The notes beneath the pieces are model-generated. The model saw only the letters and a list, made by a program, of their open reading frames with translations, did no database searches and was not told the DNA's origin. This document shows, piece by piece, positions 13,863 through 28,262 of a stretch of 28,760 nt of DNA (the stretch's first letter is position 1; every line of letters starts with the position of its first letter). The stretch comes from a virus. The position numbers were made by a program, and so were the translations under genes. Location: the IMG/VR virus record IMGVR_UViG_3300010430_000366, positions 1 to 28,760 of that record; one strand, written 5' to 3'.

Positions 13863-13864
13863 GT

Positions 13865-15112: not shown

Positions 15113-15432
15113 TCAAACCTTATGGTCCACGAGATGTCATTGGTCATGTGATCGCCCTCGGGGTTGTTTGGTGGCGTGCCGGTTGGGTAGCTGTAGCGCA
15201 GATGCACGCCGACTTCAGCGCCTGTTCGATAATCGACATAGACCTTGAATCGGTTGTCTGGCGCCGGCGGTACACCATCATCACCGAACTCGTTGCTGCG
15301 AATCGTGTCCTTGACGAACGTGCCACAGTTGTCCCACGCCGCATCGAACGCCTCGACCCCGGTAGCCCAAGAGCCCGCCGCGGTCTCAGTGACGTTCTGC
15401 AGCCGATTGAATCGATCGACACGCCAAGCCAT
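15109..15432 (-). CDS. Small structural-type protein of unknown function
   Basis: A 107-residue protein with an N-terminal helical part (FNRLQNVTETAAGSW, AFDAAWDNCG) and a beta-rich end (FKVYVDYRTGAEVGVHLRYS, then NDISWTIRFE). It has no membrane segment or known motif. ATG at 15432 follows the previous stop without a gap (TAA-ATG), and the stop overlaps the triplicated-domain gene (ATGA). Such tight coupling to two beta-rich virion-type genes suggests that it is part of the same tail or adhesin complex, perhaps a chaperone or a linking subunit. I do not recognise its family. Confidence 0.65.
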   Translation of the reverse strand: MAWRVDRFNRLQNVTETAAGSWATGVEAFDAAWDNCGTFVKDTIRSNEFGDDGVPPAPDNRFKVYVDYRTGAEVGVHLRYSYPTGTPPNNPEGDHMTNDISWTIRFE

Positions 15433-15729
15433 TTACCGTCTCTCGCCGCGTATCCCCACGACAAGCGTTGGCGACGTGGAGCCGTTGAGGTTCACGTACA
15501 CCCGCGTTTCCGATCTGGCCGGGAAGTCATAAATACTATCGGTAGCCGCGGTGAAGCTGGCGCCGGCTACATCTCGTGCCACACCATTACCATCAATCAG
15601 CACCAGCTTTGCCGTACCGCTATCAAAGTTGCCGCTCAGGTGTAAGTGCATTCTGCCGTAGCAGCTATGTTGGTTGCTGTTGCCATCGCCACTCAGCGTT
15701 TGCCACAAGCCGTCAGTTATCATTGTCAT
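15433..15729 (-). CDS. Small beta-rich structural-type protein
   Basis: A 98-residue protein that reads as one beta-sandwich domain: GRMHLHLSGNFDSGTAKLVL with an IDGNG turn, then ARDVAGASFTA, a short Tyr-Asp-Phe turn, TRVYVNLNGSTSPTLVVGIR. It has no catalytic residues. It overlaps the sulfotransferase-like gene upstream (ATGA) and directly abuts the next gene. The 'GTAKLVLIDGNG' pattern is common in small phage adhesin or fibre-tip proteins. The opening MTMITD matches the start of LacZ by chance only; the rest is unrelated. Confidence 0.65.
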   Translation of the reverse strand: MTMITDGLWQTLSGDGNSNQHSCYGRMHLHLSGNFDSGTAKLVLIDGNGVARDVAGASFTAATDSIYDFPARSETRVYVNLNGSTSPTLVVGIRGERR

Positions 15730-16283
15730 GTTAATCCCTCGTAGTAATCAATATCTGGCTGCAGGTAAGCGAGCAGCGCCGCCTCGGTTGCCGGGTCCAG
15801 TGATTTCACCAGCTTTGTCCACTTCACCTTTTTCCCCCCGCTAAGGTGCAGCTTGCCAAGTTTCTTGCCCGGCAGCTCCTGCCGCCACGTCTGCTTCAAG
15901 GTGTCAAACTTATACACATCGGTTGGTAGAAACTGGCCGTTATGCGTAAGCAGCTCCAGCTGCAGGGTCCAGTGCGGGTCTTTGTGGCCATCTATGATGA
16001 CCTGCGCCAGTCTCTCTGGCGTGTGGTAGCGGCGTGCGAAAAGTCGCATCATAGAGGCCATGCGGTCCCTTGGATCTCTGAACCACGCCAGTATATTCCA
16101 ACCCTCGCCGTGGCGTGTCAGCGCCTCATCGACACTAATCGATTTCGCGGCATTGTCACCAAAAACAGGCAACAAGCCCTGCACCATGCTAAATGACGCG
16201 CTGCGCCTGATGATACACACGACTTTCTGCTCGCTGGGAAGCTCGATAAACCGACCACCCGCCCTATTTAAGTGCCTTCTCAT
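15726..16283 (-). CDS. Sulfotransferase-family protein (PAPS-dependent type)
   Basis: A 185-residue protein resembling the Sulfotransfer_2-type family, which moves sulfate from PAPS to sugars or other acceptors. Visible landmarks are an N-terminal beta-strand and phosphate-loop-like segment (VVCIIRRSASFSM, about 21-33), the 3'-phosphate-binding motif WFRDPRDRMASM (67-78; R69, D70, R74 and S77), and the H-W-x-x-Q segment with VYKFDTL (about 104-129). The end (PDIDYYEGL) is also typical. The loop at 26-32 lacks the usual K-x-G-S/T-T residues, so activity is uncertain. I chose ATG at 16283, which overlaps the fibre gene stop (ATGA), so it is translationally coupled to the fibre. A glycan-modifying role on virion or host surface is inferred. 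Confidence 0.72.
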   Translation of the reverse strand: MRRHLNRAGGRFIELPSEQKVVCIIRRSASFSMVQGLLPVFGDNAAKSISVDEALTRHGEGWNILAWFRDPRDRMASMMRLFARRYHTPERLAQVIIDGHKDPHWTLQLELLTHNGQFLPTDVYKFDTLKQTWRQELPGKKLGKLHLSGGKKVKWTKLVKSLDPATEAALLAYLQPDIDYYEGLT

Positions 16284-18934
16284 TGCACGCCCTCGTGGAT
16301 AGCTGTGCCTATGCGGTTGCCGATAGCCCGCCCAGACGAGCGGCCAAACCGCCGCATGTCGCCCGTCCTGCTGGTGACAGACCACTCGCTTAACGTCGCG
16401 TTGCTAACGCGCTCGTTGAATATCTGCAGCCTCACCAGCAGCGTGTTGACCTGCTCCAGATCCGCGTGATCACTGCCGATATTCATATCCGTGACAGACG
16501 GGATGCTGGCAGCTCCGTCGACACCCATCTGCACGCCATTGAGATAAGCCGCGATGTCGCCTGTGTTCCAAGCCACGGCAATCACAAGGCGTGTTCCCTC
16601 CAGCCCGGTCAGGCTGGCCGTGATGTCCCACTGCGTTGTGGTGTTAACGCCGATGAAGTGCAGCGTTGAACCGATGACCTCCAGTGCAATGCGGGCCGTG
16701 GCCGAACTGTACAGGCTGACGATCGTCTTGTCGTCGTAGAAATACTTCGGGCACTCCAGCTCTATGAGTAGCGAATGCGCGCTGCCGCTAAGATCTGACA
16801 GGTCATCGGTTGTGACCACATCAGGCTCCGTCGTGTAGTTTGTCGAGCCCGTCAGAAACTGGGTCACATACAGGGGCTCACCAACATAAACCTGCCAGCC
16901 GCCCCACGTATTAGCGTAGTCATCAGAGTATGGCATCACCCGGTCGCCATCGGCTTCCGCGAGGGCCACAACCCAGTCTGCCGTCGTGTCTACGCCGTCT
17001 GACGTGAACACGGTCTCAATGCGATAAAAGCGATCGATCTCTCTGCTGACGTTGATCTCGGTAACATCAGCGCCAACCGTGCCAAGGTTGCCGTCGGCGT
17101 ACTGAAAATAAAAGCCGATGTCCGAATCGTAGTTGTCCAGCCCGATATAACCCCAGTCCGTCCACCCCGGGATAACCAGAATGTTCGGGTCGAATACCCA
17201 GACGTGGCCGCTCATGGTGTACAGCGTGGATGTTGCCAGCGTCAGCGGTTGGGCAACCTTTGACTCGCCCGGCCCGCCAACATCGAGCGGGTCAAGTCTA
17301 TTGCCACCGTAAAACGGCTTTGCCTGCCACGTACCGTCATCTTGGATAGTGTCAATACCGACAGCGGCTGTCCACGGCGCAATGCTTGGATTCACGCTGT
17401 TTATGATGAGCGTCGTGCGGGCTGGCTCTACGATCAGACCCTGCCCAAGGTGGCTGATGCCTTGGCTGAAATCACACTCACTCTCATACCATGTTAGGCC
17501 ACTGTCGCGGATATATGGGAGCTGGGCCTCACCGCCCACAATCATTAGCGATGACAGTGTAAAGTTGCCAGTGCTGGGCGTGCCATCAGCACCGAGCCCA
17601 AAATACACCCCGGGTAGCGCGGCGGGCGCAATTACCCTGAAGTCCAGTCGGCGCTTACCATCTGGCTGCAGCCTGAAGTCCTTGATGTAGAACTTCTGGC
17701 CATCGGGATAGAAATAGTCGTCACCCCAGCCCCAGTAGAAATTGTCCACGAAAACAACTGGCGTGCCCGGGTCTTCGACGCACTCCTCCAACCAGATCGA
17801 ATACAGGCTCGTGGCGAACATTGGGTGTGCCCAGTCATAGCCGGGCGCATACCAGTGATAGGCCGTTTCGTTGGTGCCAACAAACCTCATGGCATTCTGA
17901 TCGTGGCCATCGACGCCACGCTTTGACCCCTGAAACAAAAACTGGGTGCTGGGTGGTTTGCCGTTGACCGGCCAGCCCAGCTTGCTGGCAACAGGAATGG
18001 CATCGCCCGTCTGGCCTGCTGGGTAATCCCAGTAATATCCGTAGTAGTCACTTGGTACTGCGGTGTTTTGCACCGCACCAAACATCTCGCTGTTAATTAC
18101 CTCGTTTCTGGTGTGCCGCGTGGTGTAGTAGACGTGCTGCCGGATCGCGCCAGTGTGCCCGGGCCACAGCCCGCGCTCGTTGTAAGAGTGGTCGGATGAG
18201 CCAGAACTTGACCAAAGCTCATCGATGACCAGCGTATCACCACTGCCGATATACTGCTGATCGGCAAGATCCGGCCCGCCCGCAATACCAAGCCTGTAGT
18301 TGAGCTGACCGCCCCGAAAAGTCACACCAATCCGGAGAAATATCCAATCGCCAGCCGGGTCTGGCTCATAGATTGCGCTGTTGATCCCCCATGCGTCCCA
18401 GTTCTGAGCGCCTATACCTGAATCTACGGTAAATACCCGATCCTGCAGGTCGAAAATAAACGTCCGATCCGACCGCGACGGCACGGTGTCATCGTTTGTG
18501 ACAAACACGTACCGGGCCGTGCTGGCGGTGCGGTTGATCTTCAGGATGATATCTTGGCTCATAAACTTCAGCGTAAGACTCGTGAGGTAGTTGATGGGTT
18601 GTGTTAAGACATGCTGGGCGTCGGTAGCATCGTCGGTGATGGTCCATGCCGCGTTCGCACCACCCCGATAACCTGTTTCGTCCTTGGCAACGGTGACATT
18701 GGTCTTTGTCCATAGCACGTCATTCAGATCATCTGAGTGCCGGAACCAGTTGTCGCTCATGTGGAAGCCCTTAAACTTTGGGATGTTCTCGGCTACATAA
18801 TGGTTGTACTTAGAGTGATCTGGACACCAGCCAAACTGATCGTTGCGCGTGAAGGTCAGCGTGGGTCCGCGGCCTGCAATGGATCTAAGGTCAGGTTGGA
18901 CGGTCCAATCGTACTCGATCGCAGGTACTGGCAT
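16280..18934 (-). CDS. Tail fibre / adhesin-like protein with C-terminal LamG-like domain
   Basis: An 884-residue modular protein. The N-terminus (FTRNDQFGWCPDHSKYNHY) resembles the start of phage fibre proteins that carry repeated jelly-roll modules. Several such modules follow (for example NWFRHSDDLNDVLWTKTNVT, near 62, then NEVINSEMFGAVQ). Residues about 510-535 (LGQGLIVEPARTTLIINS) match the 'LIE-x-xRTNL' linker pattern of many phage fibres. The C-terminal part (about 712-850; IALEVIGSTLHFIG, RLVIAVAWNTGDIAAYLNGV) is a LamG/concanavalin-like sugar-binding domain. ATG at 18934 has AGGAG upstream. It lies before the sulfotransferase-like gene (ATGA). It probably recognises host surface glycans; polymerase or depolymerase motifs are absent. 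Confidence 0.8.
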   Translation of the reverse strand: MPVPAIEYDWTVQPDLRSIAGRGPTLTFTRNDQFGWCPDHSKYNHYVAENIPKFKGFHMSDNWFRHSDDLNDVLWTKTNVTVAKDETGYRGGANAAWTITDDATDAQHVLTQPINYLTSLTLKFMSQDIILKINRTASTARYVFVTNDDTVPSRSDRTFIFDLQDRVFTVDSGIGAQNWDAWGINSAIYEPDPAGDWIFLRIGVTFRGGQLNYRLGIAGGPDLADQQYIGSGDTLVIDELWSSSGSSDHSYNERGLWPGHTGAIRQHVYYTTRHTRNEVINSEMFGAVQNTAVPSDYYGYYWDYPAGQTGDAIPVASKLGWPVNGKPPSTQFLFQGSKRGVDGHDQNAMRFVGTNETAYHWYAPGYDWAHPMFATSLYSIWLEECVEDPGTPVVFVDNFYWGWGDDYFYPDGQKFYIKDFRLQPDGKRRLDFRVIAPAALPGVYFGLGADGTPSTGNFTLSSLMIVGGEAQLPYIRDSGLTWYESECDFSQGISHLGQGLIVEPARTTLIINSVNPSIAPWTAAVGIDTIQDDGTWQAKPFYGGNRLDPLDVGGPGESKVAQPLTLATSTLYTMSGHVWVFDPNILVIPGWTDWGYIGLDNYDSDIGFYFQYADGNLGTVGADVTEINVSREIDRFYRIETVFTSDGVDTTADWVVALAEADGDRVMPYSDDYANTWGGWQVYVGEPLYVTQFLTGSTNYTTEPDVVTTDDLSDLSGSAHSLLIELECPKYFYDDKTIVSLYSSATARIALEVIGSTLHFIGVNTTTQWDITASLTGLEGTRLVIAVAWNTGDIAAYLNGVQMGVDGAASIPSVTDMNIGSDHADLEQVNTLLVRLQIFNERVSNATLSEWSVTSRTGDMRRFGRSSGRAIGNRIGTAIHEGVQ

Positions 18935-18936
18935 TT

Positions 18937-19179
18937 CTAACTCCTGTTGGCATCATCCATCACGGCAATGGTGGACCAATGCCTGCCGGTGTCGCCGGCG
19001 TTCGTCTTCGCCTCTTTGGCAGCCATGCGAATCCACTGCTGCAGCTTGAGGGCGTCGGTGTAGTGCATCCTGAGCGTGCTGTTGCCGATCTGGATGACGG
19101 TGGTCTCACCCTCGGCATAGGCTTTGACGTCCTGCCTGTGCCTGAGCCCGCCAGTGAACTCGTGGCCGTTCTGTTTCAT
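18937..19179 (-). CDS. Small basic protein of unknown function upstream of the fibre
   Basis: An 80-residue charged protein (HEFTGGLRHRQDVKAYAEGE, then a short beta pair TTVIQIGNSTLRMHY and a helix ALKLQQWIRMAAKEAK). It has no membrane segment. ATG at 19179 shares bases with the preceding stop (TGATG), and its own stop lies two bases before the fibre ATG, so it is coupled to both. The strand-strand-helix layout, with 'IGNSTLRMHY', occurs in small phage proteins near fibre genes. A fibre assembly helper is possible, but nothing in the sequence proves it. Confidence 0.65.
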   Translation of the reverse strand: MKQNGHEFTGGLRHRQDVKAYAEGETTVIQIGNSTLRMHYTDALKLQQWIRMAAKEAKTNAGDTGRHWSTIAVMDDANRS

Positions 19180-19445
19180 CAGCTCGGTGTGACCTGCGTA
19201 GCTCCAAGTCCGTCAATCAGGGTCCAGTCATCAGTAGCGTCTGGGCCATCCGCCACGTACATCAATTTGAGCGTAGATTCATACACCCGCCTGCCGAGAA
19301 ACTTGTCCAGCGTGTTGATGCGAGCAGTCGCGTCAGCCAGTTCCGCGGTCGTCGCGGTCGGGAACATCACCTCTTCAAATTCCTCTTTGTTGACGGTGAC
19401 ATACGCTGCGATCGTTTTCAGGTCTAATCTGCTTCCACTTACCAT
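19179..19445 (-). CDS. Small tail-region protein with NT-x-KFxGRxV motif
   Basis: An 88-residue protein with an N-terminal helical part (TIAAYVTVNKEEFEEVMF) and a C-terminal beta part (INTLDKFLGRRVYESTLKLM, DDWTLIDGLGATQVTPS). The 'NT-x-x-KF-x-GR-x-V-x-(D/E)-(S/T)' pattern, followed by W-x-(L/I)-x-DG ... TP, is one I recall in short phage proteins adjacent to fibre genes, where it may form a trimer or linking segment. It begins 12 bases after the preceding stop and ends in a one-base overlap with the next gene. Its function has not been assigned. Confidence 0.65.
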   Translation of the reverse strand: MVSGSRLDLKTIAAYVTVNKEEFEEVMFPTATTAELADATARINTLDKFLGRRVYESTLKLMYVADGPDATDDWTLIDGLGATQVTPS

Positions 19446-19457
19446 TGCGCTCTCCTG

Positions 19458-19901
19458 TTATGTGACGCTGATGTCGAGCTGGCCAGCCTTGAATCGTGGC
19501 TGCACGCCTGAGCTGACATCGAGGGATGGGGATACGGCGCCATAGATCTGCAGGTATCCGGTCGAGGATGCCGCGGAGCCCAGCCCGAAGTAGGTCTCAG
19601 TCTCAGAGCCGCCCGTGGCCTCGGGGAACAGGATCTCGTTATCGTTGTCCACGTTGCCCGTGGCGACCGTCCACTCAGCAACCGACCTAGCGACCGCCAC
19701 CCGGGCGTAAGACGTGTAGGCGGCCTCTGACTGGTCCTGATCAGTGTGTGCGTCATTGAGTGTGGCCGTGTGCAGGCTGGCGTAGATTGAGCCGACCGTG
19801 CCGGCAGGTTGCAGGCCACTGGCATCGCCCCAGTTCGGCGCCTGAACATTGGTGAACATCAGGTCAAGCAGGTCGTCTTCGAGCTGGTTAGTGGCTGGCA
19901 T
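19458..19901 (-). CDS. Phage tail/fibre-associated beta-sandwich protein
   Basis: A 147-residue protein with a widely seen phage layout: an N-terminal helix (NQLEDDLLDLMFTN), then SIYASLHTATLND, an E-AAYTSYARVAVAR segment, a W-TVATG ... NDNEILFPEATGG segment, a YFGLG strand, and a C-terminal GAVSPSLDVSSG ... P-x-FKAGQLDI end. This is the layout of small fibre-like or tail-tip proteins ('YARV ... W ... N ... I-x-FP-x-A ... P-x-F-x-x-G-x-L'). It starts inside the last codons of the preceding 39-residue gene and leads the fibre gene cluster. A host-recognition or connector role is likely. Confidence 0.75.
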   Translation of the reverse strand: MPATNQLEDDLLDLMFTNVQAPNWGDASGLQPAGTVGSIYASLHTATLNDAHTDQDQSEAAYTSYARVAVARSVAEWTVATGNVDNDNEILFPEATGGSETETYFGLGSAASSTGYLQIYGAVSPSLDVSSGVQPRFKAGQLDISVT

Positions 19902-20007
19902 TGGATTTCCCCTTGGCCTTGGGTGGCTTCCAGCCTTTCTTGGCGAGACGTTTCAGCTGATTATCCTTGCGAGCAAGGCGCTCCTTGGGATCGGTGATGG
20001 TGGGCAT
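19888..20007 (-). CDS. 39-residue basic peptide
   Basis: A short frame (MPTITDPKERLARKDNQLKR at the start, ending KSNASH) with ATG at 20007 preceded by CCGGAGA at good spacing. It overlaps the following tail gene by 14 bases, in the manner of other gene pairs here. The product is strongly basic (Lys/Arg-rich, KKGWKPPKAKGK) and has no hydrophobic segment. The stretch between the HTH gene stop and the tail gene is otherwise empty. The ribosome-binding site and the overlap support it as a real gene, perhaps a nucleic-acid-binding peptide or a leader coupling translation to the tail operon. Confidence 0.55.
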   Translation of the reverse strand: MPTITDPKERLARKDNQLKRLAKKGWKPPKAKGKSNASH

Positions 20008-20039
20008 GGCGGTCTCCGGTGCTAACTGAGCGGAGTATA

Positions 20040-20255
20040 TCAGCCTGCGCCTATGGGTCGAGCCTCACTCAGCTCCAGTTCCAGCAGCCTCAGGTAAGAC
20101 GACTTCATCGGCATAAAGGTAGGGTCAGTCGGCTCGCGGGTCCAGTAGTGAACCGTCGAGCGACCGCAGCGGCACAGCTCTACAACGCGCTTTTGCGTCA
20201 GCTTGTGCTTTTTCATGAGGCGCAGCAGGCGCCTGTTGGGATTCATTTTGGCCAT
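20040..20255 (-). CDS. Cro/CI-like helix-turn-helix regulator (71 residues)
   Basis: A small DNA-binding protein. Residues about 12-40 (RLMKKHKLTQKRVVELCRCG then RSTVHYWTRE) form a lambda-repressor-type helix-turn-helix. The C-terminal half (SSYLRLLELELSEARPIG) could be a dimer helix. I chose ATG at 20255; ATG at 20246 (MNPNRR) is an alternative, and the longer frame to 20309 would run through the control elements. It is divergent from the plus-strand operon at 20451-21199 and is separated by inverted repeated elements, as expected for a repressor that controls itself and the operon. No Shine-Dalgarno is clear, which fits a leaderless message (see the promoter entry). It lacks a peptidase domain, so no RecA-induced cleavage is expected. 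Confidence 0.8.
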   Translation of the reverse strand: MAKMNPNRRLLRLMKKHKLTQKRVVELCRCGRSTVHYWTREPTDPTFMPMKSSYLRLLELELSEARPIGAG

Positions 20256-20262
20256 GTGACCC

Positions 20263-20306
20263 ATCATATCTGAACAATGCGAGAATATCCACCCGCATAG
20301 GTAAGC
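20263..20306 (-). promoter_or_regulatory. Putative promoter and operator of the HTH gene
   Basis: On the minus strand, TGGATA (20291-20286), 17 bases and TATGAT (20268-20263) form a plausible sigma-70 promoter. TATGAT ends seven bases before the HTH ATG at 20255, so transcription would start at or next to the ATG, giving a leaderless message like lambda cI from PRM. Two elements shared with the opposite promoter are present: CATTGTTCAGATATGAT (20279-20263), covering the -10 box, and GCTTACCTATGC (20306-20295), just upstream of the -35 box. These are likely operators for the HTH protein. Confidence 0.55.
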
Positions 20307-20390
20307 CATTTAATCTGCGCAAAACCGGATCTGGCCGGCGGCAATCAAGCACTTAGCCACGTATTTCCGATAAATCCTTATAAATCAACC

Positions 20391-20424
20391 GCATACCTAT
20401 GCCATTGTTCAGATGTGATATAAT
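20391..20424 (+). promoter_or_regulatory. Extended -10 promoter with two operator-like elements for the plus-strand operon
   Basis: TGATATAAT (20416-20424) is a perfect extended -10 box; the -35 region is poor, as is usual for such promoters. The dyad GCATA-CC-TATGC (20391-20402) covers the -35 position and CATTGTTCAGATGTGAT (20403-20419) covers the spacer and the start of the -10 box. Both occur again, in opposite orientation, before the divergent HTH gene (11/12 and 16/17 identical). Transcription would begin near 20431, followed by AAAGGAGG (20437-20444) and ATG at 20451. Confidence 0.65.
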
Positions 20425-20450
20425 ATGTATGTAGAGAAAGGAGGCAAACA

Positions 20451-20711
20451 ATGCAACTGCAACGATACCGCGAAGAACTCCTCAAGGGCGCCCGGCCTGC
20501 GCTGGTCGTCAATGAGGGTCGCAAGTGGATGCAGGTGCTGGTTGTCGATCACGGCAAGCTACGGATGGTCCGTCGCCCGTTGACTGAGAAACAGCACATG
20601 ACACCATTGGCAACAAATGAGCGCAAAGCGAAAGCGAGCTTCAGACGCATGGCCAAACGCCGCGGCACGCCGCGCAAGGTAAGAGAGTTTCTAAAGGAGG
20701 CGCTTGCATGA
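20451..20711 (+). CDS. Small basic protein, first gene of the plus-strand operon
   Basis: An 86-residue basic protein. The first half has beta-type segments (ARPALVVNEGRKWMQVLVV, then GKLRMVRRPL); the second half is a charged helical region (NERKAKASFRRMAKRRG, then RKVREFLKEALA). No catalytic motif was seen. ATG at 20451 has a near-perfect AAAGGAGG site, and its stop overlaps the next ATG (ATGA), so the two products are made together. The basic helical end could bind nucleic acid. As part of a regulated cassette with a peptidase-like partner, it may be a cofactor, substrate or inhibitor of that partner. I do not recognise a family. Confidence 0.75.
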   Translation: MQLQRYREELLKGARPALVVNEGRKWMQVLVVDHGKLRMVRRPLTEKQHMTPLATNERKAKASFRRMAKRRGTPRKVREFLKEALA

Positions 20712-21199
20712 AGCTACACCCCACCAAGACCACCGGCAAGCATCCGCTCTGGTGCGGGCCGTCTGCCCTGTCGATCATGACCGGGCGCACGGTCAACTAC
20801 TGCGCCAAGCTGGTAGCTGATCGCCGCAACCGCCGCGGCTGGCACCGAGGCCGCGGCACCTCCAAGCAGGTCAAGGGCGTCGACAACCTAGAGATGCGGC
20901 TGGCCCTCAAGAAGATGGGCTACCGCATGGTGGTTGTTGATGTGCCGAAGCTGAATCATCGCCATCAGGTCATGAGCATCAACCCCGAGCCCTTTGTGCA
21001 GCCAACGCTGTTCCAATACATGAGCGCCCGGGGCGGACCCAACTGGAAGAAGACCATGCTGCTCGAAGTCACTGGTCACTATGTCGTGGTCAACCGGGAC
21101 ACCGTGGCCGACAACCGCACGCCGCTGGGCTGCCACTACAGCAAGTACCGCTGGAAGAAGATGCGAGTGCGGGAGGCTTGGTTAGTCACCTCGATGTGA
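20708..21199 (+). CDS. C39/papain-like cysteine peptidase candidate
   Basis: A 163-residue protein with a cysteine-peptidase layout: the nucleophile motif WCGPSALSIMTGR near the N-terminus (C16), a later TGHYVVV strand (H124), and a VADNRTP segment (D135/N136) as the third residue. This Cys-Gly-Pro-Ser/Ala ... Gly-His-Tyr ... Asp-Asn order is the C39-like and papain-like pattern, and short phage proteins of this kind are known to me only as uncharacterised. A usual oxyanion Gln before the Cys is not obvious (H12 is at that place). The core is basic. No signal peptide is seen, so it would act in the cytoplasm. It could cleave a host or phage protein, or be an inactive fold. A strong GGAGG site overlaps the previous gene and a terminator follows at once. 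Confidence 0.65.
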   Translation: MKLHPTKTTGKHPLWCGPSALSIMTGRTVNYCAKLVADRRNRRGWHRGRGTSKQVKGVDNLEMRLALKKMGYRMVVVDVPKLNHRHQVMSINPEPFVQPTLFQYMSARGGPNWKKTMLLEVTGHYVVVNRDTVADNRTPLGCHYSKYRWKKMRVREAWLVTSM

Positions 21200-21242
21200 G
21201 GTAAGCTGCCCCTGAGTAAAGCGGGATACCCATCCCCATCTT

Positions 21243-21269
21243 AGCCCCGGTTCGCCGGGGCTTTTTTTT
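21243..21269 (+). terminator. Strong intrinsic terminator of the plus-strand operon
   Basis: An 8-base-pair stem (AGCCCCGG with CCGGGGCT, 21243-21250 and 21255-21262) closes a TTCG tetraloop and runs into a tract of eight T residues (21262-21269). It ends the two-gene plus-strand operon 43 bases after its stop codon. The T tract also contains the TAA stop of the convergent large terminase gene. On the minus strand the stem is not followed by T residues, so it should not stop late transcripts. Confidence 0.9.
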
Positions 21270-22737
21270 AATCTATCTCGGGCTCCAGATCTTCCAGACT
21301 CTCCTGCGCCATGGCGACAGGCACCGGATGTGCGAACGTCATCGCCAGTGCGTCACCCTTGTCCGGGCTCGGCAGGCCACGCTTGCTCATGTCTTCCTTG
21401 GACTCCAGCCGCATCCGCATACCGATGTCAAAGTGCAGCTCAGGCCCAATCAGGTCCTCGAACAGCTCGTTGTCATCAGGGATGGTGCCTGACTCCAGCC
21501 ACTTGGCCATGCGGTGCCAGATCTCAATGCGCGGGTTGTAGTAGATCAGTGGCTCCATGACCATGGACCTGTCGCCCCAGTAGATCGGCGTCACCATGTC
21601 GAAGCCGTTCTGGATCAGCAGCAGGTAGACGCCGTGACCATAGCCAGTGGCATCGATGAACACCACGTCAGGATCATACTCGTTGATGGCCTTGCCGATG
21701 TGGCCGGCGATGACGTTGTGATTTGCATCCCTGATCTGGATGACCTTATCCGTCATGTAGGGTCCGTGACGCATGACGATCACCGTGCGCGCTGCGCCGT
21801 AGCTGCCGACATCGATGCCCATGACTCTGGGTATCTTGCGAGGGATCTGCCGAGGGTTGATATTCTTGCGCCTGTCGATCGCACCCTGCGTCACGTCATT
21901 GCTGATGAATTGCTTGGTGCCCGAGCTGGGGAACTCGCCCAAGATCCTGACCTTGCAGAAGTCAGAATCAATGCCGTAATCCTCGACCCACTCATCGAGC
22001 TGTTGCCGGTTGGCTTTCTTGGCCGTGCGGCTGTCTACCTTGTCGGTGATCCACCTGTGCCTGAACTTGGTCCAGCACTGCCTGAAGCGGCCTGTGTTGC
22101 TGGTCGGGTTGCCGAAGCAGAACCACATCGCCCCGGGCGTCGTCATGGCGCCCTCGCTGACTTCCCAGATGATGTCCTCGATCTCTGACGCCTCATCAAA
22201 CAGCAGCATGACGTGATTCTCATGCGTGCCGGCGAACGCCGAGCTATTGGCAGCAGACCATGGCACCGCGGTTGCGAACCACGTCTCCTTGCGATCGAAG
22301 AGTTTCAGCTGGGTAGCGGTGTAGATGAACCAGTCGCCGTGTATGCAGAGATCCTGCCACTTCGCCAGCTCACGCCAAGTCTTGGTCGTCAGCTGCTGTT
22401 GTGTATTGGCGGTAACGACGATCTGAGGCCGTGGGCGCGTGGAAATGAACCACAGGATTAACCATGACGTGAGCGCAGTCTTGCCGATTCCGTGGCCACT
22501 GGCGACCGCCAGCCGTATCGCGGGATCTCCAAGCGGTATACCTTTCCTGATCGCCGCCTCGATCTTGAGCATTGTTGATGTTTGCCATTCGTCTGGTCCT
22601 GTCTCGTGTTCGAGCGGCGTACCGGGCTCACCCCATGGAAAGAACTGCCTGACGAACCTCAGCGGGCTGGCAAAGCACTTGATCAGGTCGATCTGCACCA
22701 GCTCTTTGGCAGTGAACTTCTTGGCGGGCTCGTTCAA
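21268..22737 (-). CDS. Terminase large subunit
   Basis: A 489-residue DNA-packaging motor. The ATPase domain has Walker A GHGIGKTA (81-88), Walker B MLLFDEA (177-183) and a coupling-type CFGNPTS segment (207-213). The nuclease domain has acidic residues D309 (GIDVG), D362 (FIDATG) and D462 (KGDALAM). A second Asp often seen just after the first (G-D/G-D) is here GAA, which is unusual but not one of the core catalytic positions. The start is TTG at 22737, fixed by an in-frame stop seven codons upstream, with GGAGA before it. Sixteen genes lie between it and the small subunit, which is an uncommon separation. The gene runs convergent with the plus-strand operon. Confidence 0.95.
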   Translation of the reverse strand: MNEPAKKFTAKELVQIDLIKCFASPLRFVRQFFPWGEPGTPLEHETGPDEWQTSTMLKIEAAIRKGIPLGDPAIRLAVASGHGIGKTALTSWLILWFISTRPRPQIVVTANTQQQLTTKTWRELAKWQDLCIHGDWFIYTATQLKLFDRKETWFATAVPWSAANSSAFAGTHENHVMLLFDEASEIEDIIWEVSEGAMTTPGAMWFCFGNPTSNTGRFRQCWTKFRHRWITDKVDSRTAKKANRQQLDEWVEDYGIDSDFCKVRILGEFPSSGTKQFISNDVTQGAIDRRKNINPRQIPRKIPRVMGIDVGSYGAARTVIVMRHGPYMTDKVIQIRDANHNVIAGHIGKAINEYDPDVVFIDATGYGHGVYLLLIQNGFDMVTPIYWGDRSMVMEPLIYYNPRIEIWHRMAKWLESGTIPDDNELFEDLIGPELHFDIGMRMRLESKEDMSKRGLPSPDKGDALAMTFAHPVPVAMAQESLEDLEPEID

Positions 22738-22830: not shown

Positions 22831-23061
22831 TTATGATGCAAGCGCTATACCGCGGCCGTTGACCAGCCACAGGTAGGCCGGGCTCATGTACGCATCGTTA
22901 TCCCAGTGGGTGCCGGTCAGCACGATCTCATCGCACTCAGGATCGCAACCAGCCAGATCAGAGGCGCGCTTGATCTCCACAGCTGCCCGTGGGTTGGCCT
23001 TGTGCAAGACCAGCCAATCACGGTACTGGGCATGGCTGCCCGCTATGATCAACTTGCGCAT
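22831..23061 (-). CDS. Small Rossmann-like phage protein of unknown function
   Basis: A 76-residue protein (start MRKLIIAGSHAQYRDWLVLH). The pattern 'KLIIAG ... (Q/A)-x-RDW ... NPR', then a Ser/Asp segment, and 'EIVLTGTHWD' near the middle, is one I recall in small uncharacterised phage proteins; it suggests an alternating beta-alpha fold. I chose ATG at 23061, with AGAGACAAGA upstream, since homologues as I remember them start at this point. ATG at 23094, one base after the stop of the 31-residue gene, would add 11 residues and is also possible. No catalytic residues are obvious. Confidence 0.65.
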   Translation of the reverse strand: MRKLIIAGSHAQYRDWLVLHKANPRAAVEIKRASDLAGCDPECDEIVLTGTHWDNDAYMSPAYLWLVNGRGIALAS

Positions 23062-23095
23062 TCTTGTCTCTTTGGTGCGATTCATGTTCAGCATC

Positions 23096-23191
23096 TTACA
23101 TCATTACGAGGTGACTAAGGTAATAGGCCAGCAGCAGGGCTATCATCGCCACAAAGAAGGCCGCCCAGCCAAAGCATCCGGCACGCTTCAT
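23096..23191 (-). CDS. 31-residue single-pass membrane peptide
   Basis: A very short frame: MKRAGCFGWAAFFVAMIALL leads into a Leu/Tyr stretch and ends LSHLVMM. It is one hydrophobic helix (about 6-24) with a positive N-terminus, so N-in topology is expected. ATG at 23191 lies right after the preceding stop (TGA-C-ATG) with a GGGGA site upstream; its stop is directly before the start of the next gene. The spacing and ribosome-binding site support translation. It may be a small toxin-like or holin-like peptide, or a membrane anchor for a neighbour, but no family is recognisable. Confidence 0.6.
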   Translation of the reverse strand: MKRAGCFGWAAFFVAMIALLLAYYLSHLVMM

Positions 23192-23192
23192 G

Positions 23193-23627
23193 TCAGTTCC
23201 CCACCGTCGCCCACGGGCGCAGGCTTAGAGCAAAGTCAAGCTGAGGCGGGGCCGAGTCGATCTTCCAACCGAGATAGCATTCGCCGTACCTCGTCTTCGA
23301 GTATTTCCAGACCATTCTCACACTCGATAACACGCCGGCCACCTTGAACCGCCATACGAACGAGTTTGCCATCTGATGGGGCTCCATCAAGACATAGCCG
23401 TAGGTCTTCGATGTATCCGGGTGCTTCAGTAAGTAATCGAACCCACCGACGGGGTTGCGTACCGCTCTTTCCCAGTACGTGACCGGGCGCCCAGTCCCTG
23501 CCCGGTACAGGCCACTCGTCTTCGAGCTTATCGGCACGATGCCTAACCCCAAAACCACAAGCACGAGCTTGATCACTATCACGGGTATCCATAGCACTAT
23601 ACTCAGTAAGATTTTCAGGCCAGCCAC
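23193..23627 (-). CDS. Conserved phage membrane-associated protein (DUF7338-like)
   Basis: A 144-residue protein. It starts with one or two hydrophobic helices (about 3-33; ILLSIVLWIPVIVIKLVLV) and continues into a soluble domain with the pattern WERAVRNPVGGFDYLLKHPD, WRFKVAG, GWKIDS ... LDFALSLRPWATVG. This conserved 'RNPVGG ... GWK ... LRPWATVG' layout is familiar to me from small phage proteins of unknown role, and DUF7338 is the name I would check first. ATG at 23627 overlaps the preceding gene by 13 bases. A different minus-strand frame (23236-23745) of 169 codons overlaps this one but lacks such features and is rejected. Confidence 0.72.
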   Translation of the reverse strand: MAGLKILLSIVLWIPVIVIKLVLVVLGLGIVPISSKTSGLYRAGTGRPVTYWERAVRNPVGGFDYLLKHPDTSKTYGYVLMEPHQMANSFVWRFKVAGVLSSVRMVWKYSKTRYGECYLGWKIDSAPPQLDFALSLRPWATVGN

Positions 23628-23800
23628 TGGTCATACCCCACCAGCAGCAGCACGAAGATTGCGAAGGCAACAAACGGCCACAGCTTCCAGCCCTTGCCAC
23701 CGAAGATCGGAACCCACTCAGGGAAGGTTCCCTCGATGCCTCCACCCAGTTTGGTCATCGGGCGCAGTGCTTTGTGTAGCCATGCCATCAATTTATCCAT
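23615..23800 (-). CDS. Small membrane protein, 61 residues
   Basis: A short protein with an amphipathic N-terminus (MDKLMAWLHKALRPMTKLGG) and a C-terminal hydrophobic helix (about 39-58; LWPFVAFAIFVLLLVGYDQW). ATG at 23800 lies one base after the preceding stop and has GGAG upstream. With a single helix and a short tail, it might be a holin-like or membrane-anchor protein. It sits among four consecutive membrane or secreted products (24798-23096), which suggests a membrane-modifying module rather than a virion one. No homologue is recognised. Confidence 0.68.
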   Translation of the reverse strand: MDKLMAWLHKALRPMTKLGGGIEGTFPEWVPIFGGKGWKLWPFVAFAIFVLLLVGYDQWLA

Positions 23801-23801
23801 G

Positions 23802-24494
23802 TCATTTCTCCATGCAGCCGGCGATTATCCGGTCTTTAGACTCTTCGCAGGTATCACGATCGAATGCCCGCTCTTCGAGTAGCAATGCCACGCGGCGCTC
23901 AAGCTCGGCGTTACGCTCCGCAAGCGTGCCGATGTCTATGAACTGCGTCATCTTGGCGTGGCAAGCCTCAGTGGCCTGCTCCTTGCTCACGCCCTTGCCC
24001 TTGAATGGTTTGTAGATGTTGCGCTTGTGGCAGCGCCAGTACCAAGCTAGGCTGTGATCGCCCACGGCGCCGGCATCATCCGCGGCCTGCTCGTAGTCAC
24101 AGGCTGCTGATCGGTGCGGGTAGCCAATGCCACCACTGCCCGAGCTGGTTCCGAAGCTGATGCCCCAGATCCGCAGGCAGTTCTCGGTATTGTTGTTGGG
24201 CACCAGCACGACATTGCTGCTCTCGTTGGTGCTGTTGAATGTCGTGTCGCCGCCTTCGAGCGTCGTGGCCCCGGTAGACAGGGATGACAACGCGCCCTCA
24301 CCCTCACCACCACCGATATTTACGGTCACGTCCTGCTGGTTGGCCTGTGATTGCTTCTGGTGCTGGTCCTGCTCCTGCTCGACAGGTGGTGGCTTGTTGG
24401 TCGCATACGCCGGCCTCAGTGCAAACGAGAGGACAGTCAGGATCAGCAGCGTCATTGCCGCAGCCCACAGGATCTCAGTTGTCTTTTGTTTCAT
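23802..24494 (-). CDS. Secreted or signal-anchored Cys-rich protein with C-terminal coiled coil
   Basis: A 230-residue protein. The N-terminus is a signal peptide or anchor (MKQKTTEILWAAAMTLLILT, then a hydrophobic stretch to about 26, with a possible AYA cleavage at 29-31). A Pro/Gln/Asn-rich linker (35-60) follows. A middle domain (about 95-185) has paired-looking Cys residues (NCLRIWGISFGTSSGSGG, IGYPHRSAACDYEQAADD, WYWRCHK, ATEACHAK), a pattern I recall from phage proteins found near lysis or packaging genes. The end (about 188-215; ERNAELERRVALLLEERAF) is a coiled coil. GGGGAG precedes ATG at 24494, two bases after the lipoprotein stop. A periplasmic partner role, perhaps spanin-like, is speculative. 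Confidence 0.72.
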   Translation of the reverse strand: MKQKTTEILWAAAMTLLILTVLSFALRPAYATNKPPPVEQEQDQHQKQSQANQQDVTVNIGGGEGEGALSSLSTGATTLEGGDTTFNSTNESSNVVLVPNNNTENCLRIWGISFGTSSGSGGIGYPHRSAACDYEQAADDAGAVGDHSLAWYWRCHKRNIYKPFKGKGVSKEQATEACHAKMTQFIDIGTLAERNAELERRVALLLEERAFDRDTCEESKDRIIAGCMEK

Positions 24495-24495
24495 C

Positions 24496-24798
24496 TCACT
24501 CCCCTATCAGGTCGACCTCGATGCCGAGCATCACCTGTTGATTGTGCAGGTGGACGTTCTGGCACCATGCCGCCCGGCCCTCAACCTGCTTGTATCTCTT
24601 CTTGACGCCACCGCAGACCATATCCCAGCCATCGTTATTCACTGCCGGGTCGCTCAGGTGTGTGTACCCCAAGTAGGGCGTCACGCATCCGCTAAGGAAC
24701 AGACTTGCAGCTAGTGTTGCTGTCAGCCGACTGCACCGTGCTGTTCCATGCCGTGGCAACGAAGCAATGCTCGCCCGGGGTAAGCCGTGTAACCTCAT
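24496..24798 (-). CDS. Small lipoprotein, nested in the end of the LamG-Fn3 gene
   Basis: A 100-residue prelipoprotein with a hydrophobic stretch and lipobox LTATLAASLFLSGC; lipid would be attached to C38 and leave a 63-residue mature part (CVTPYLGYTHLSDP start, GIEVDLIGE end). A start at ATG 24798 (GTGAGG upstream) gives a 24-residue n-region; TTG at 24759 gives a more usual signal (MPRHGTARCSRLTATL). Either way the signal peptide is coded in another frame inside the last 107 or 68 bases of the upstream gene. The mature part has two Cys and a 'GYTHLSD ... DGWD' pattern. It is likely an outer-membrane protein; an o-spanin or superinfection-exclusion role is possible but unproven. Confidence 0.7.
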   Translation of the reverse strand: MRLHGLPRASIASLPRHGTARCSRLTATLAASLFLSGCVTPYLGYTHLSDPAVNNDGWDMVCGGVKKRYKQVEGRAAWCQNVHLHNQQVMLGIEVDLIGE

Positions 24799-25852
24799 AA
24801 GCGATGGCCTCACCGTCGAGGTGCGTGACCAGTTCACGCGGCTGCTCTCGGTAAATACTAATCCGGTCGGGTATTCCGGCTGGCAGTGCGTCTCCATCTT
24901 CGTCCTCGGTTGGGTTGATCCAGTTCAGCATCACGCTGCCATCAGGCATACCAAGCGGGTCGGCATAGATCGCCATGCTCACCGTGCCGTCTATTGGCCT
25001 GTCAGGGCCGATGGTCGCGTCGTTGGGGTCGTTACAGCGCGTACACAGTCCGCCGAGCGTCAGTGGCAGGTCATTGCCAGCCAGACTGAACGCATTAGGG
25101 TCCGACGCTTCCAGTGCGCCATCCAGATGGATAGAGATTCCCACACCCGCCTCGACACTCACTACAGCCACATACGCCACACCCGCCACAATCGCAGTCG
25201 TCGCCTGTAGCTGCACCTGCGGCAGCAGGTCGTCTTGATGCCTGACGATCAGCGTGCCGTTGTCGACCCAGATGCTCAGGTGTCCCGCGGTCCTTGTACC
25301 GTTCTCGTCCCGGCTCGCTAGTCCCTGAATCCCCGAGCTGGTGTTTAGCGTGAAGGTGATTTCCCATCTGAATGCGTCCCTCGCCAGAGCTGAGATAGTG
25401 TTCGGGTATTGGGTGATTGAAGTCACTGGTCCAAACGTGACCAGAGGTGAATCGTCCGGGGGCGGCTCGGGCGGCGGCTCCACAGGTGGAGGCTCAACGA
25501 CAGGAGGCAAATCCAGAGATGCGCTCACCCGATATGTGCCACCCCGGACGAAATAGGTTGCGCCGTCTTGCAGCGCTCTGTTCATGCAGGACTGAAATGC
25601 CTTGTCCTGTCTCGTGTGGCCGCTGATCATTGTGCCTGTCGCGGTCTCGCAGTACCACTCGTGCGAGCTGTCCCTGATTGAGCTGACCTCATCAGCAACG
25701 GCACCAACAGCGATCAGGACCAGCATCAGCGCCAGCGCTACACCGAACCACACACCGCGGGCAAACGCATTGCGCTCAACATCTTCAACCATCGACTTGG
25801 CCTTTTGCCAGTCCAGATGGCTTGGCCTCGATCCCGTGTGGATGCTTCCCAT
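24692..25852 (-). CDS. Membrane-anchored LamG-Fn3 protein
   Basis: A 386-residue modular protein. It has a cytoplasmic N-terminus, one membrane helix (about 34-53; WFGVALALMLVLIAVGAV), a small Cys-containing domain (about 57-112, with AFQSCMNRALQDGATYFVRG), a Pro-rich linker (116-134), a LamG/concanavalin-like domain (about 137-300; LSIWVDNGTLIVRH, ISIHLDGALEA) and a C-terminal Fn3-like domain (about 305-386; GSVMLNWINPTE, HCFVATAWN). The LamG part has a C-x-x-C pair (LCTRC). I chose ATG at 25852, with GGAGAG upstream. It is displayed on the periplasmic side if N-in. It could bind cell-wall or surface sugars, either for exclusion of other phages or for lysis. Confidence 0.75.
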   Translation of the reverse strand: MGSIHTGSRPSHLDWQKAKSMVEDVERNAFARGVWFGVALALMLVLIAVGAVADEVSSIRDSSHEWYCETATGTMISGHTRQDKAFQSCMNRALQDGATYFVRGGTYRVSASLDLPPVVEPPPVEPPPEPPPDDSPLVTFGPVTSITQYPNTISALARDAFRWEITFTLNTSSGIQGLASRDENGTRTAGHLSIWVDNGTLIVRHQDDLLPQVQLQATTAIVAGVAYVAVVSVEAGVGISIHLDGALEASDPNAFSLAGNDLPLTLGGLCTRCNDPNDATIGPDRPIDGTVSMAIYADPLGMPDGSVMLNWINPTEDEDGDALPAGIPDRISIYREQPRELVTHLDGEAIAYEVTRLTPGEHCFVATAWNSTVQSADSNTSCKSVP

Positions 25853-25972
25853 TGGTCTCTCCAAGTTAAGGCGAGCCGAAGCGGCTCCAGACGTGACAGA
25901 TTTTGCTGTCTACGAGTTTCCACGCACCTCGGCATATGTGGACGCCAATACCTTCTCCGGCTCACCAGTTCA

Positions 25973-26143
25973 TCATGTTCCTCGCGATTGTGCTTGGTAC
26001 GCGGCCTGCTCTTCGTTCTTGGCCTTGTGGCAGTCCTTGCATAACATGTCGAAGCATTTCATGCCAGTAATCACCGATCTCACCGAGCTGGGCATCAGGC
26101 CCACGATCCCGGGGAACATGACATCACAGCCGGCGCATTTCAT
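25973..26143 (-). CDS. Mini zinc-ribbon protein B (56 residues)
   Basis: A short protein with two Cys pairs: C3-x2-C6 and C35-x2-C38, plus C30 between. The second pair, in LCKDCHKAKNEEQ, resembles the zinc knuckle of HNH-type endonucleases ('LC-x2-CH-x2-K'), although the protein is too short to show a complete HNH domain. I chose ATG at 26143, which overlaps the stop of the nuclease-like gene (ATGA). The 120-base stretch after it up to 25852 holds only a short GAGCCG/CGGCTC hairpin without T tract. A DNA- or RNA-binding accessory to the nuclease is a plausible guess. Confidence 0.68.
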   Translation of the reverse strand: MKCAGCDVMFPGIVGLMPSSVRSVITGMKCFDMLCKDCHKAKNEEQAAYQAQSRGT

Positions 26144-26583
26144 GCCGCCACCGGCCTGTCGCAAAGCCTCATCCAGCGCACCGGAACCAAGAACACAGGC
26201 TCCACATCCTGATCGTCGTTGCGGTCGGTGCGGCCACGGTACTCGATGTCCCACTTGGCCAGAACCTTTGGCTCCAGCTTTTGGTAGTGGACCATGCCGG
26301 CCAGCCTGACCACATACACGACATAGATGCCCATGCGCTCGTAAGCCATCAGGGCGCGGGCCTTGGCCACGCTCAGGAATACGGTCTCATACTCTGGCCG
26401 CCAGCCCGTGCGATCCTTGACCTCAAAGAAGCACTGCACCTTGCCGCTACGGATCAGAGCGAAGTCTATCTCAGCGTATGCCCCGGGGAGTTTGCGAGCC
26501 TCACCGTTACAGTGGGTCGCGAAGATGTTAGCGATCTCTTGTTCAGCATCGCGGTCGGACTCTCGCTCATACCGTGGTCTCAC
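26140..26583 (-). CDS. PD-(D/E)XK-like nuclease
   Basis: A 147-residue protein with a PD-(D/E)XK-type core: E16 in an N-terminal helix, KLPGAYAEIDFALI (D40) and a CFFEVKDRTG strand (E54, K56), then helix KARALMAYERMGI and strand VYVVRLAG. This E ... D ... E-x-K order is typical of small phage nucleases such as VRR- and Holliday-resolvase-like folds. GTG at 26583 is preceded by AAGGAGG and overlaps the previous gene by 17 bases. It is flanked by two mini zinc-ribbon genes. It may act in DNA packaging, recombination or host DNA attack; its substrate cannot be told from sequence. Confidence 0.72.
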   Translation of the reverse strand: MRPRYERESDRDAEQEIANIFATHCNGEARKLPGAYAEIDFALIRSGKVQCFFEVKDRTGWRPEYETVFLSVAKARALMAYERMGIYVVYVVRLAGMVHYQKLEPKVLAKWDIEYRGRTDRNDDQDVEPVFLVPVRWMRLCDRPVAA

Positions 26584-26764
26584 CGGCAGCCTCCTTATGT
26601 TCAGTTCGGGTCATGGTACTCTCACACTCCTCACAAAGCCAGACCGTCCAGCGTGGTCCGAATCTCGGGTGTGGCCGGCGCACGGCGATGATCTTCTCGC
26701 CCGGCACCATGCGAAAGCATTCATCGCAGCAGCTGAACAGTGGCTTGGGGTTGTACTTAGCCAT
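26567..26764 (-). CDS. Mini zinc-ribbon protein A (65 residues)
   Basis: A short protein with two CxxC knuckles: C13-D-E-C16 (after another Cys at 12) and C44-E-E-C47, separated by 27 residues with a beta-type basic middle (GEKIIAVRRPHPRFGPRWTV). The layout is that of a zinc ribbon which may bind nucleic acid or another protein. I chose ATG at 26764; an ATG two codons earlier is also possible. It overlaps the previous gene by eight bases and the nuclease-like gene by 17. The 'VWLCEECE' end is often seen in phage zinc proteins near terminase genes. Confidence 0.7.
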   Translation of the reverse strand: MAKYNPKPLFSCCDECFRMVPGEKIIAVRRPHPRFGPRWTVWLCEECESTMTRTEHKEAAGETTV

Positions 26765-26960
26765 CAACATGCCTGCCGTGGTAATTGCGGGGGTCGACAC
26801 CCGGGCGGAAGAGCCAGCCATTGCGGTCAATATATTCCTCGTTATTTGGGTCGCCCTCGTGAATGATGCTGCAGCGCCTGACGGGCCCACCGGGCCAGTA
26901 GATCTCTGACGGCGGCGGGCTGGTCGCGCTAATCCAGAACTTGCTCTTGCGCTTGCTCAC
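26757..26960 (-). CDS. Small basic protein of unknown function (GTG start)
   Basis: A 67-residue protein (start MSKRKSKFWISATSPPPSEI). It begins at GTG 26960 in a GTGA overlap with the preceding stop; the frame extends to 27026 but that would run inside the previous gene. Features are a basic N-terminus, a W-P-G-G-P turn, a strand CSIIHEGD and a hydrophilic C-terminus (DRNGWLFRPGVDPRNYHG). The last part, with several aromatic and His residues, could bind metal or nucleic acid. I see no known motif. It is part of the tight accessory operon between the terminase subunits. Confidence 0.6.
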   Translation of the reverse strand: MSKRKSKFWISATSPPPSEIYWPGGPVRRCSIIHEGDPNNEEYIDRNGWLFRPGVDPRNYHGRHVDG

Positions 26961-27259
26961 GAATCCTCCAATGCGGTTAGTGCTTTCTTTAGCCACACAA
27001 TTGCTGCTGTTTCTTCCCTGCTGCACTGCTCGGCCCGCAGTATCCCATGTGCCGCCTCAACAACAACCTCCAATTTCTCGACGCGGGCATCGGCATCCTT
27101 GATGTCGTTCTGCAGCACATCAAACCCTTTGCTGCAATTTGTTAGCTGCTCCCGCAACCGCTCAATCTCGTCTTGCACTTCACAGAATAGCTGCCCATCC
27201 TCAGTGAATGGGCGAACGTGCTGGATGTAGTTCTCAATCCGTTCAATCAGGTCAGTCAT
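26957..27259 (-). CDS. Coiled-coil protein of unknown function
   Basis: A 100-residue helical protein. After a short N-terminus (MTDLIERIENYIQHVRPF), residues about 22-75 follow heptads with Leu, Val and Ile (VQDEIERLREQLTNC, FDVLQNDIKDADARVEKLEV), so it most likely forms a dimeric or trimeric coiled coil. The end (EETAAIVWLKKALTALE) is another helix. ATGA overlap with the gene before and GTGA with the gene after. Such proteins between terminase genes can be structural linkers or regulators, but no motif decides the matter. Confidence 0.65.
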   Translation of the reverse strand: MTDLIERIENYIQHVRPFTEDGQLFCEVQDEIERLREQLTNCSKGFDVLQNDIKDADARVEKLEVVVEAAHGILRAEQCSREETAAIVWLKKALTALEDS

Positions 27260-27564
27260 TGTCTTGCCTCATACCATGCTTCGATGATTGTTTGATGCAG
27301 GTTATTGCCCATTGCCTGCTTGCCATTGAACATCACAGACCACATGCCAAGCTGTGCGTCGTCGCAGTTCACAATCGAGCCTGAATCGATCACCTCCAAC
27401 ACCTTCATCACTACGCGCCCGTCGGTGATGAATTGTTTAGCACAGCCTACGTCCGTGTCTGCACAACGATAGACAGGTGTATTGTGCTGATTATGCTCGT
27501 CGCTGGACTTGGTGAGTATCCCCGCCTCTACCAGTGCGTCTGCTAATACGGTTGCGTCAGTCAT
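27256..27564 (-). CDS. Small protein, possible phage ABA-sandwich domain
   Basis: A 102-residue protein. The second half (ITDGRVVMKVLEV, GMWSVMFNGKQAMGNNLHQT, then IIEAWYEARQ) has the look of the phage ABA-sandwich domain: a 'W-x-V-x-F/Y-x-x-G' strand pair followed by a helix with A-(I/W)-(C/E)-A. The N-terminal half (VLADALVEAGIL, then a His/Asn-rich stretch and two Cys at CADTDVGC) is less clear. It overlaps the small terminase gene (ATGA) and the next gene (ATGA). I hold the domain call at low weight; the gene itself is well supported. Confidence 0.62.
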   Translation of the reverse strand: MTDATVLADALVEAGILTKSSDEHNQHNTPVYRCADTDVGCAKQFITDGRVVMKVLEVIDSGSIVNCDDAQLGMWSVMFNGKQAMGNNLHQTIIEAWYEARQ

Positions 27565-28262
27565 TTCACCTCCGCGAACTCAGCGTCAAGGATCACGTCT
27601 TTCCAGCCGTCCAGATCCTTGGTCTCCCTGATCCGGTTGATGCCACGCTCAAGCAGGTCGCCAATGCGCTCCACATCGTCGGCGTCCAGTTTGTCGACCA
27701 GCAGGCCCAGATGCTTACCGATCGTGTCTACGGCCTTTTGCTGGTCCACCACCTTGACCTGCACGTTCTGGTTGATGTACTCGCCATCGGCGCTCTTGGT
27801 GGTGGTCAGTTTGATCTCTCTGAGGTTGGTGCGCTGCGCCGGCGTCAGGTCATCGGTTGGCCGCAGGATCATGTAGCCGTCTTCGTCCACCCTGAAGTAA
27901 TCCAGTGGCGTGGCCTGTGCAAACTCTACCCAGCGTCGGAACACGTATTCAGTCTCGATGCCGGCCTTGATGAACAGGCGCTCAAGCATCGGCGTCAGGA
28001 TCTCGATGGTCTCAGTCGTTCTCAGCAGCTTGTGACCGTTAGCGGCTGCCGTCTTGTCCGTCACGTTAGGCTTGATCTCTTTGTACGCAGCAGTCGCATT
28101 CAGCTCGTTACGGATCAGTGCCTCAGCGAATAGACGATGTATTGCTTCAGGCTTACTGATGACCTTAGAGACAGCCTTCTTGGCTGGTGTTCTCTTCTTG
28201 GGTGCAGGCTTTGCTTTAGGCTTGTCTGCCTGTACTGCAGCGATGTCATCCTTCAGGCTCAC
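27561..28262 (-). CDS. Terminase small subunit (Terminase_2-like)
   Basis: A 233-residue DNA-recognition subunit of the packaging motor. A Lys/Pro/Ala-rich N-terminal tail (about 13-35) leads to a helix-turn-helix-type part (KPEAIHRLFAEALIRNELNA then TAAYKEIKPNVTDKTAAANG, about 37-76). A beta-region (DYFRVDEDGYMILRP, LREIKLTTTKSADGE) and helices (AVDTIGKHLGLLVDKL) follow, as in Terminase_2 proteins. I chose GTG at 28262: GGAG lies seven bases upstream and it forms a GTGA overlap with the previous stop. The longer frame (ATG at 28322) would overlap the previous gene by 64 bases. It is unusually far from the large subunit (about 4.8 kb). Confidence 0.82.
   Translation of the reverse strand: MSLKDDIAAVQADKPKAKPAPKKRTPAKKAVSKVISKPEAIHRLFAEALIRNELNATAAYKEIKPNVTDKTAAANGHKLLRTTETIEILTPMLERLFIKAGIETEYVFRRWVEFAQATPLDYFRVDEDGYMILRPTDDLTPAQRTNLREIKLTTTKSADGEYINQNVQVKVVDQQKAVDTIGKHLGLLVDKLDADDVERIGDLLERGINRIRETKDLDGWKDVILDAEFAEVK

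Follow-up and report, generated by a model that had tools for sequence, protein, structure and literature searches.

A candidate moron-type cassette encoding a predicted cysteine-peptidase-fold protein beside the TerL gene of an epsilon15-like podophage

A small group of genes oriented against its surroundings raises the question of whether it is cargo carrying its own regulation, or a set of ordinary phage genes which have been reversed by chance. The locus studied here occupies positions 20040-21270 of a virus record which measures 28,760 bases, is a linear fragment and is called the window below. At this locus, a minus-strand gene encoding an HTH protein diverges from a plus-strand operon of two genes (86 and 163 aa), and the cassette thus formed is located between the TerL gene and a fibre/head-type gene. 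A previous sequence-only reading had attributed this layout to a moron equipped with a peptidase-like effector. The features involved are the following:

7306-8292, minus: major head protein gene, epsilon15-like podophage assignment
10041-12362, minus: portal gene, epsilon15-like podophage assignment
19458-19901: fibre/head-type gene (Pfam Gp80, E 3e-16), flanking the cassette on the side opposite TerL
20040-20255, minus: HTH regulator gene, 71 aa from the ATG at 20255; a longer ORF extends to 20309
20263-20291, minus: putative HTH promoter, TGGATA and TATGAT with a spacing of 17
20295-20306: GCATAGGTAAGC, imperfect palindrome, candidate operator
20309-20323: TTTAATCTGCGCAAA, intergenic block, identical in the sister contig
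20391-20402: GCATACCTATGC, palindromic candidate operator at the plus-promoter -35 region
20403-20419: CATTGTTCAGATGTGAT, inverted copy of 20263-20279, overlapping the plus-promoter -10
20416-20424, plus: putative extended -10 promoter TGATATAAT
20451-20711, plus: gene for a basic protein of 86 aa (pI 11.6) which matches no family
20708-21199, plus: gene for the 163-aa protein, predicted C39/papain-like cysteine-peptidase fold
21243-21270, plus: predicted intrinsic terminator, 8-bp stem with seven G-C pairs, T tract
21268-22737, minus: TerL gene, epsilon15-like podophage assignment
27561-28322: TerS gene

Genomic Setting and Organization of the Cassette

Based on its TerL, portal and major head protein genes, which are all on the minus strand, the window was placed with the epsilon15-like podophages. 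The TerL protein shows at most about 50% identity with those of known phages, and no DNA-level match was found between the window and any phage record. In the Pfam search, matches with DUF5320 and DUF7124 were under cut-off. The other annotated genes of the window all lie on the minus strand, in line with the previous description, and this orientation is conserved in the sister contig presented below; the plus-strand ORFs in these regions are antisense. The GC content of the cassette is 58-62%, vs approximately 57% in its surroundings. A base composition differing from that of the neighbouring genes is common in morons, without being obligatory.

The architecture of the plus-strand operon was borne out. 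The two genes share an ATGA overlap (20708-20711), and TGATATAAT is the only TGnTATAAT present on either strand of the window. The ribosome-binding sites, which had been described as very strong, have a duplex energy of -11.6 kcal/mol in both genes, ranking joint second among the 36 gene starts scored, so that they account for two of the top three Shine-Dalgarno sites of the window. The terminator consists of a stem (21243-21262) followed by T8 (-16.6 kcal/mol, z -3.4).

The HTH Gene and the Candidate Operators

The start of the HTH gene is probably at 20255 rather than at 20309, since the sister gene is homologous from this point on and the ATG is located 7 nt past the TATGAT element. No Shine-Dalgarno site precedes this start in the window (-3.1 kcal/mol). 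In the sister contig, the corresponding promoter reads TTGATA-17-TATGAT and the ATG likewise occurs 7 nt further on; in view of this spacing in both contigs, the HTH mRNA is predicted to be leaderless. As regards the protein itself, the best matches were obtained with PHROGs transcriptional repressors (E 1e-4 to 1e-3) and Pfam HTH_23 (E 0.005), all of which are under the curated cut-offs, and no match was found in phage records. The designation as Cro-like is therefore a soft one. A match with mad1 (E 0.0018) spans just an HTH stretch.

The repeats reported previously were also found. Copies of the GCATAsSTAwGC type occur at 20295-20306 and 20391-20402, and a 17-nt inverted repeat (94%) links 20263-20279, an arm overlapping the HTH-promoter -10, to 20403-20419. 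The length of this repeat is only modestly unusual, exact arms of at least 12 nt occurring in about 6% of the shuffled sequences. The repeats overlap or flank both divergent promoters, and the HTH protein would be expected to bind repeats over both.

A small HTH regulator, a strong promoter, repeats at the core promoter and small effectors are also features of the acr-aca operons, where they are associated with early-burst logic (PMC9410906), and the cassette might be an anti-defence operon of this kind, in which the pair of plus-strand proteins blocks bacterial immunity under the control of an Aca-type autorepressor, the HTH protein. Among PDB sequences, it is in fact Aca1 which matches the HTH protein best, but this match is non-significant (E 1.4) and no significant sequence relation with these operons was detected. 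In addition, the regulator is divergent here, whereas aca is located downstream in the acr operon, and neither of the plus-strand proteins matches the defence or anti-defence families of PADLOC or NCBIfam. We regard this explanation as rather unlikely. The role in superinfection exclusion or anti-defence suggested in the sequence-only reading is not supported.

Conservation of the Cassette in a Sister Contig

A profile search of viral contigs yielded one sister contig (G001, locus L017), which shows 94% identity with the window in the head protein, about 77-78% in the portal and 81% in the part of TerL present in the contig. The same three cassette genes occur there beside TerL, in the same order, orientation and position, and their products show identities of 48% (HTH), 53% (86 aa) and approximately 61% (163 aa), with an overall range of 48-62%. 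The dN/dS ratios, which are approximate since dS is above 1, amount to about 0.46, 0.29 and 0.22, respectively, and indicate at sequence level that all three genes are under purifying selection.

The regulatory elements have been retained to various extents. The sister contig carries exactly one TGnTATAAT, at the place equivalent to that of the window, and the TATAATATGTATGTAG block at the plus promoter is conserved. The longest stretch common to the two intergenic regions measures 16 nt, vs at most 11 in shuffles, and the common blocks cover the HTH -10, TTTAATCTGCGCAAA and TATAATATGTATGTAG. CCGCATAGGTAA, of the candidate operator at 20295-20306, was found again in the inverted orientation. 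The 17-nt repeats have not been retained as a pair at equivalent positions, TGTTCAG being the only part conserved. The terminator is a different hairpin, equally strong and in the same place.

The window genes at 12868-20040 have no counterpart in the sister contig, so that the cassette survives amid otherwise variable surroundings. Its flanks differ as well: in the sister contig, an HNH endonuclease gene (4546-5055) separates it from TerL, and its opposite flank is occupied by a peptide deformylase gene (2836-3336). Further scans of viral contigs with portal, 86-aa and HTH queries led back only to this same contig, and nothing was found in scans of bacterial genomes; the full cassette is known in only two phages. 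Since a related phage keeps the same gene set at the same place, the cassette is probably useful cargo.

The Junction Past TerL as an Insertion Site

In two other relatives (L003 and L005), TerL directly joins the portal gene and there is no insert. In epsilon15, TL-2011b, SPN9TCW and ST512-KPC3phi13.3, an opposite-strand gene follows TerL, accompanied by a tRNA in two cases, and these reversed genes show no mutual similarity; other epsilon15-like relatives carry inserts on the same strand after TerL. The genes in question (epsilon15 gp50, TL-2011b gp23, SPN9TCW_003 and the DUF2829 gene of ST512-KPC3phi13.3) resemble the cassette in their junction and in their convergence with TerL, but they are single genes with no divergent HTH gene, and are unrelated to the cassette proteins. 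Unrelated reversed post-TerL genes were recorded at 2181-2546 in L075, 3996-4343 in L079, 2190-2895 in L080 and 3984-4789 in L082, with tRNA-Arg in two of them. Judging from these comparisons of gene order, the post-TerL junction of epsilon15-like phages is a moron site, and the proposal that the cassette has a moron layout is strengthened both by this variability and by the fact that a second phage carries the three genes together at this locus.

A precedent exists in P22, where pid is an antisense moron of the late region with a terminator of its own (PMC3573128). Like the cassette, it is a reversed small-protein locus with a strong Shine-Dalgarno site, at a position where relatives have either nothing or other inserts (PMC3573128). 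Unlike the cassette, it is a single gene, with neither a dedicated HTH regulator nor a peptidase-fold partner. Its product also measures 86 aa, which is a coincidence of length: no sequence relation between the 86-aa protein and P22 pid was found, the former having no phage match. In a study on Salmonella prophages, a gene antisense to the lytic genes and provided with its own promoter was interpreted in the same way (PMC7067206).

Alternatively, these might be ordinary regulatory or early genes of the lytic cycle, reversed by chance and having no cargo role (serving in phage-protein processing, for example). The distant homologues of the 163-aa protein, such as Roseobacter CRP-901 gp28 and those of the Brevundimonas jumbo phages, are indeed usually co-oriented, ordinary accessory genes with no HTH or 86-aa partner. 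The cassette nevertheless forms one self-contained unit in reversed orientation, its junction differs among relatives, and it is absent from related phages having the same kind of virion genes; we hold this explanation to be improbable. The two plus-strand genes travel with the HTH gene in the sister contig, and the distant homologues usually occur without it. Since the nearest homologue sits in the same divergent cassette, homologues are not confined to continuous plus-strand operons.

The 163-aa Protein

No match above cut-off was obtained with the 163-aa protein in Pfam, PHROGs, NCBIfam or PADLOC, and none in plasmids, whereas iterated contig searches yielded about 30 distinct phage relatives. 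The isolates among them are all alphaproteobacterial phages: Brevundimonas jumbo phages, Erythrobacter XM05 and Roseobacter CRP-901.

An AlphaFold model based on an alignment of 32 sequences reached a pLDDT of 88.4 and a pTM of 0.84 (folding from a single sequence gave a pLDDT of only 29). The closest structures are the C39 peptidase domains of ComA (Z 10.6) and PCAT1 (Z 10.0), with an rmsd of 3.0-3.3 over approximately 118 residues, followed by staphopains and Josephin deubiquitinases. When PDB sequences were searched with the profile of the family, the matches were at chance level only, so that the assignment of the fold depends solely on structure comparison. The Cys16-Gly-Pro motif and His124 are invariant in the 32 sequences, and Asp135, which is kept in the short clade, is present in 12 of them, including the window protein, the other 20 having a Cys at this position. 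The model and these residues support a fold of the C39/papain-like type in which a Cys-His-Asp site is plausible, and the suggestion of a peptidase-like effector is supported by both the predicted fold and the invariant Cys and His.

In C39 and papain-type peptidases, the oxyanion-hole Gln is expected about six residues before the catalytic Cys. No Gln occurs at this position in the alignment, where the column contains G, L, F, T and other residues, and the sister protein has a Q at -5 only. Since this Gln is absent, the 163-aa protein might be inactive or use another chemistry. The likeness to the C39 domains of ComA and PCAT1 therefore extends to the fold and the order of Cys, His and Asp, whereas these domains form the N-terminus of ABC transporters and the 163-aa protein stands alone, with no Pfam match and no Gln at the expected spacing.

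The members of a long clade (about 250 aa, loci L021-L070) have Cys-Gly instead of Asp-Asn at the third catalytic position and an extra C-terminal domain.

The 86-aa Protein

The sister gene is the sole relative found for the 86-aa gene, with no match in phage records. A short motif, RKW..VVDHGKL..V..P, is common to this protein and the pre-portal protein of a relative (L004, 11512-11868); this similarity (23 residues; E 6e-5 in a tiny set and 0.007 in the locus set) was discounted because it is too short and the window's own pre-portal protein shows no similarity to the motif.

A small gene placed first, the ATGA overlap, and a promoter and terminator belonging to the operon itself would also suit a toxin-antitoxin-like addiction or exclusion module, with the 163-aa protein as the toxin, the 86-aa protein as the antitoxin and a divergent repressor; the same fold is found, at lower Z values (6.5-7.0), in papain-like toxins from CDI and polymorphic systems. 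Antitoxins are usually acidic, however, and the 86-aa protein is strongly basic. Furthermore, the 163-aa family occurs at about 30 other phage loci with no 86-aa partner, the genes being preceded by unrelated small genes or by none, so that the family does not require the 86-aa protein as a partner, which weighs against a toxin-antitoxin pair. This makes the module an improbable explanation, and it is weaker than a moron-type cassette, as is the anti-CRISPR explanation.

Possible Role of the Cassette

The interpretation which we favour, with somewhat better than even confidence, is that an epsilon15-like podophage carries, inserted directly past its TerL gene, a moron-type accessory cassette which delivers an HTH-autoregulated burst of a cysteine-peptidase-fold effector. 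The conservation of the cassette in only two phages, the loss of the 17-nt repeat pair in the sister contig, the absence of the oxyanion Gln and the occurrence of the distant homologues outside such cassettes weigh against it. A strong host-type promoter (sigma-70, extended -10) would drive the translationally coupled 86-aa and 163-aa pair, both members of which probably act in the cytoplasm of the host. Only a low level of the divergent HTH protein would be made from its probably leaderless mRNA, and this protein would bind repeats over both promoters and shut both down. Upon entry into a naive cell, an early burst of the pair would thus be followed by a low level of expression, independently of the late genes. 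The effector might act by catalysis, and its target might be a host or defence protein. Expression in lysogens, which the sequence-only reading had given as an example, is unsupported, since neither an integrase-like match in the scanned proteins nor a prophage in the bacterial genomes was found, both contigs being incomplete. A bolder proposal, which we consider distinctly improbable, is that the 163-aa family may consist of unrecognised phage-specific C39/Josephin-like cysteine hydrolases which cleave either a ubiquitin-like modifier or a protein of host defence, carried here in a mobile counter-defence cassette with a helper protein and an HTH-timed burst promoter.

Under the favoured moron-type interpretation, the cassette adds a regulated multi-gene member to the moron class, and the TerL-portal junction of epsilon15-like phages is a recurrent cargo site worth mining. 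A family which is unnamed in the libraries searched, and which occurs in phages infecting several alphaproteobacteria and in many metagenomic contigs, is linked here to a cysteine-peptidase fold with a conserved Cys and His, which makes its activity and targets directly testable.

Two further observations concern the genes outside the cassette. The region of the window between TerS and TerL (22831-27564, about 4.8 kb) contains mainly small unmatched minus-strand genes, one of which gave a weak match with a PHROGs "hemolysin" (holin-like) family. In the sister phage, a 1021-aa protein (L072, 3831-6896) partially matches the virion RNA polymerase and DarB-like PHROGs and is probably a large ejected virion protein.
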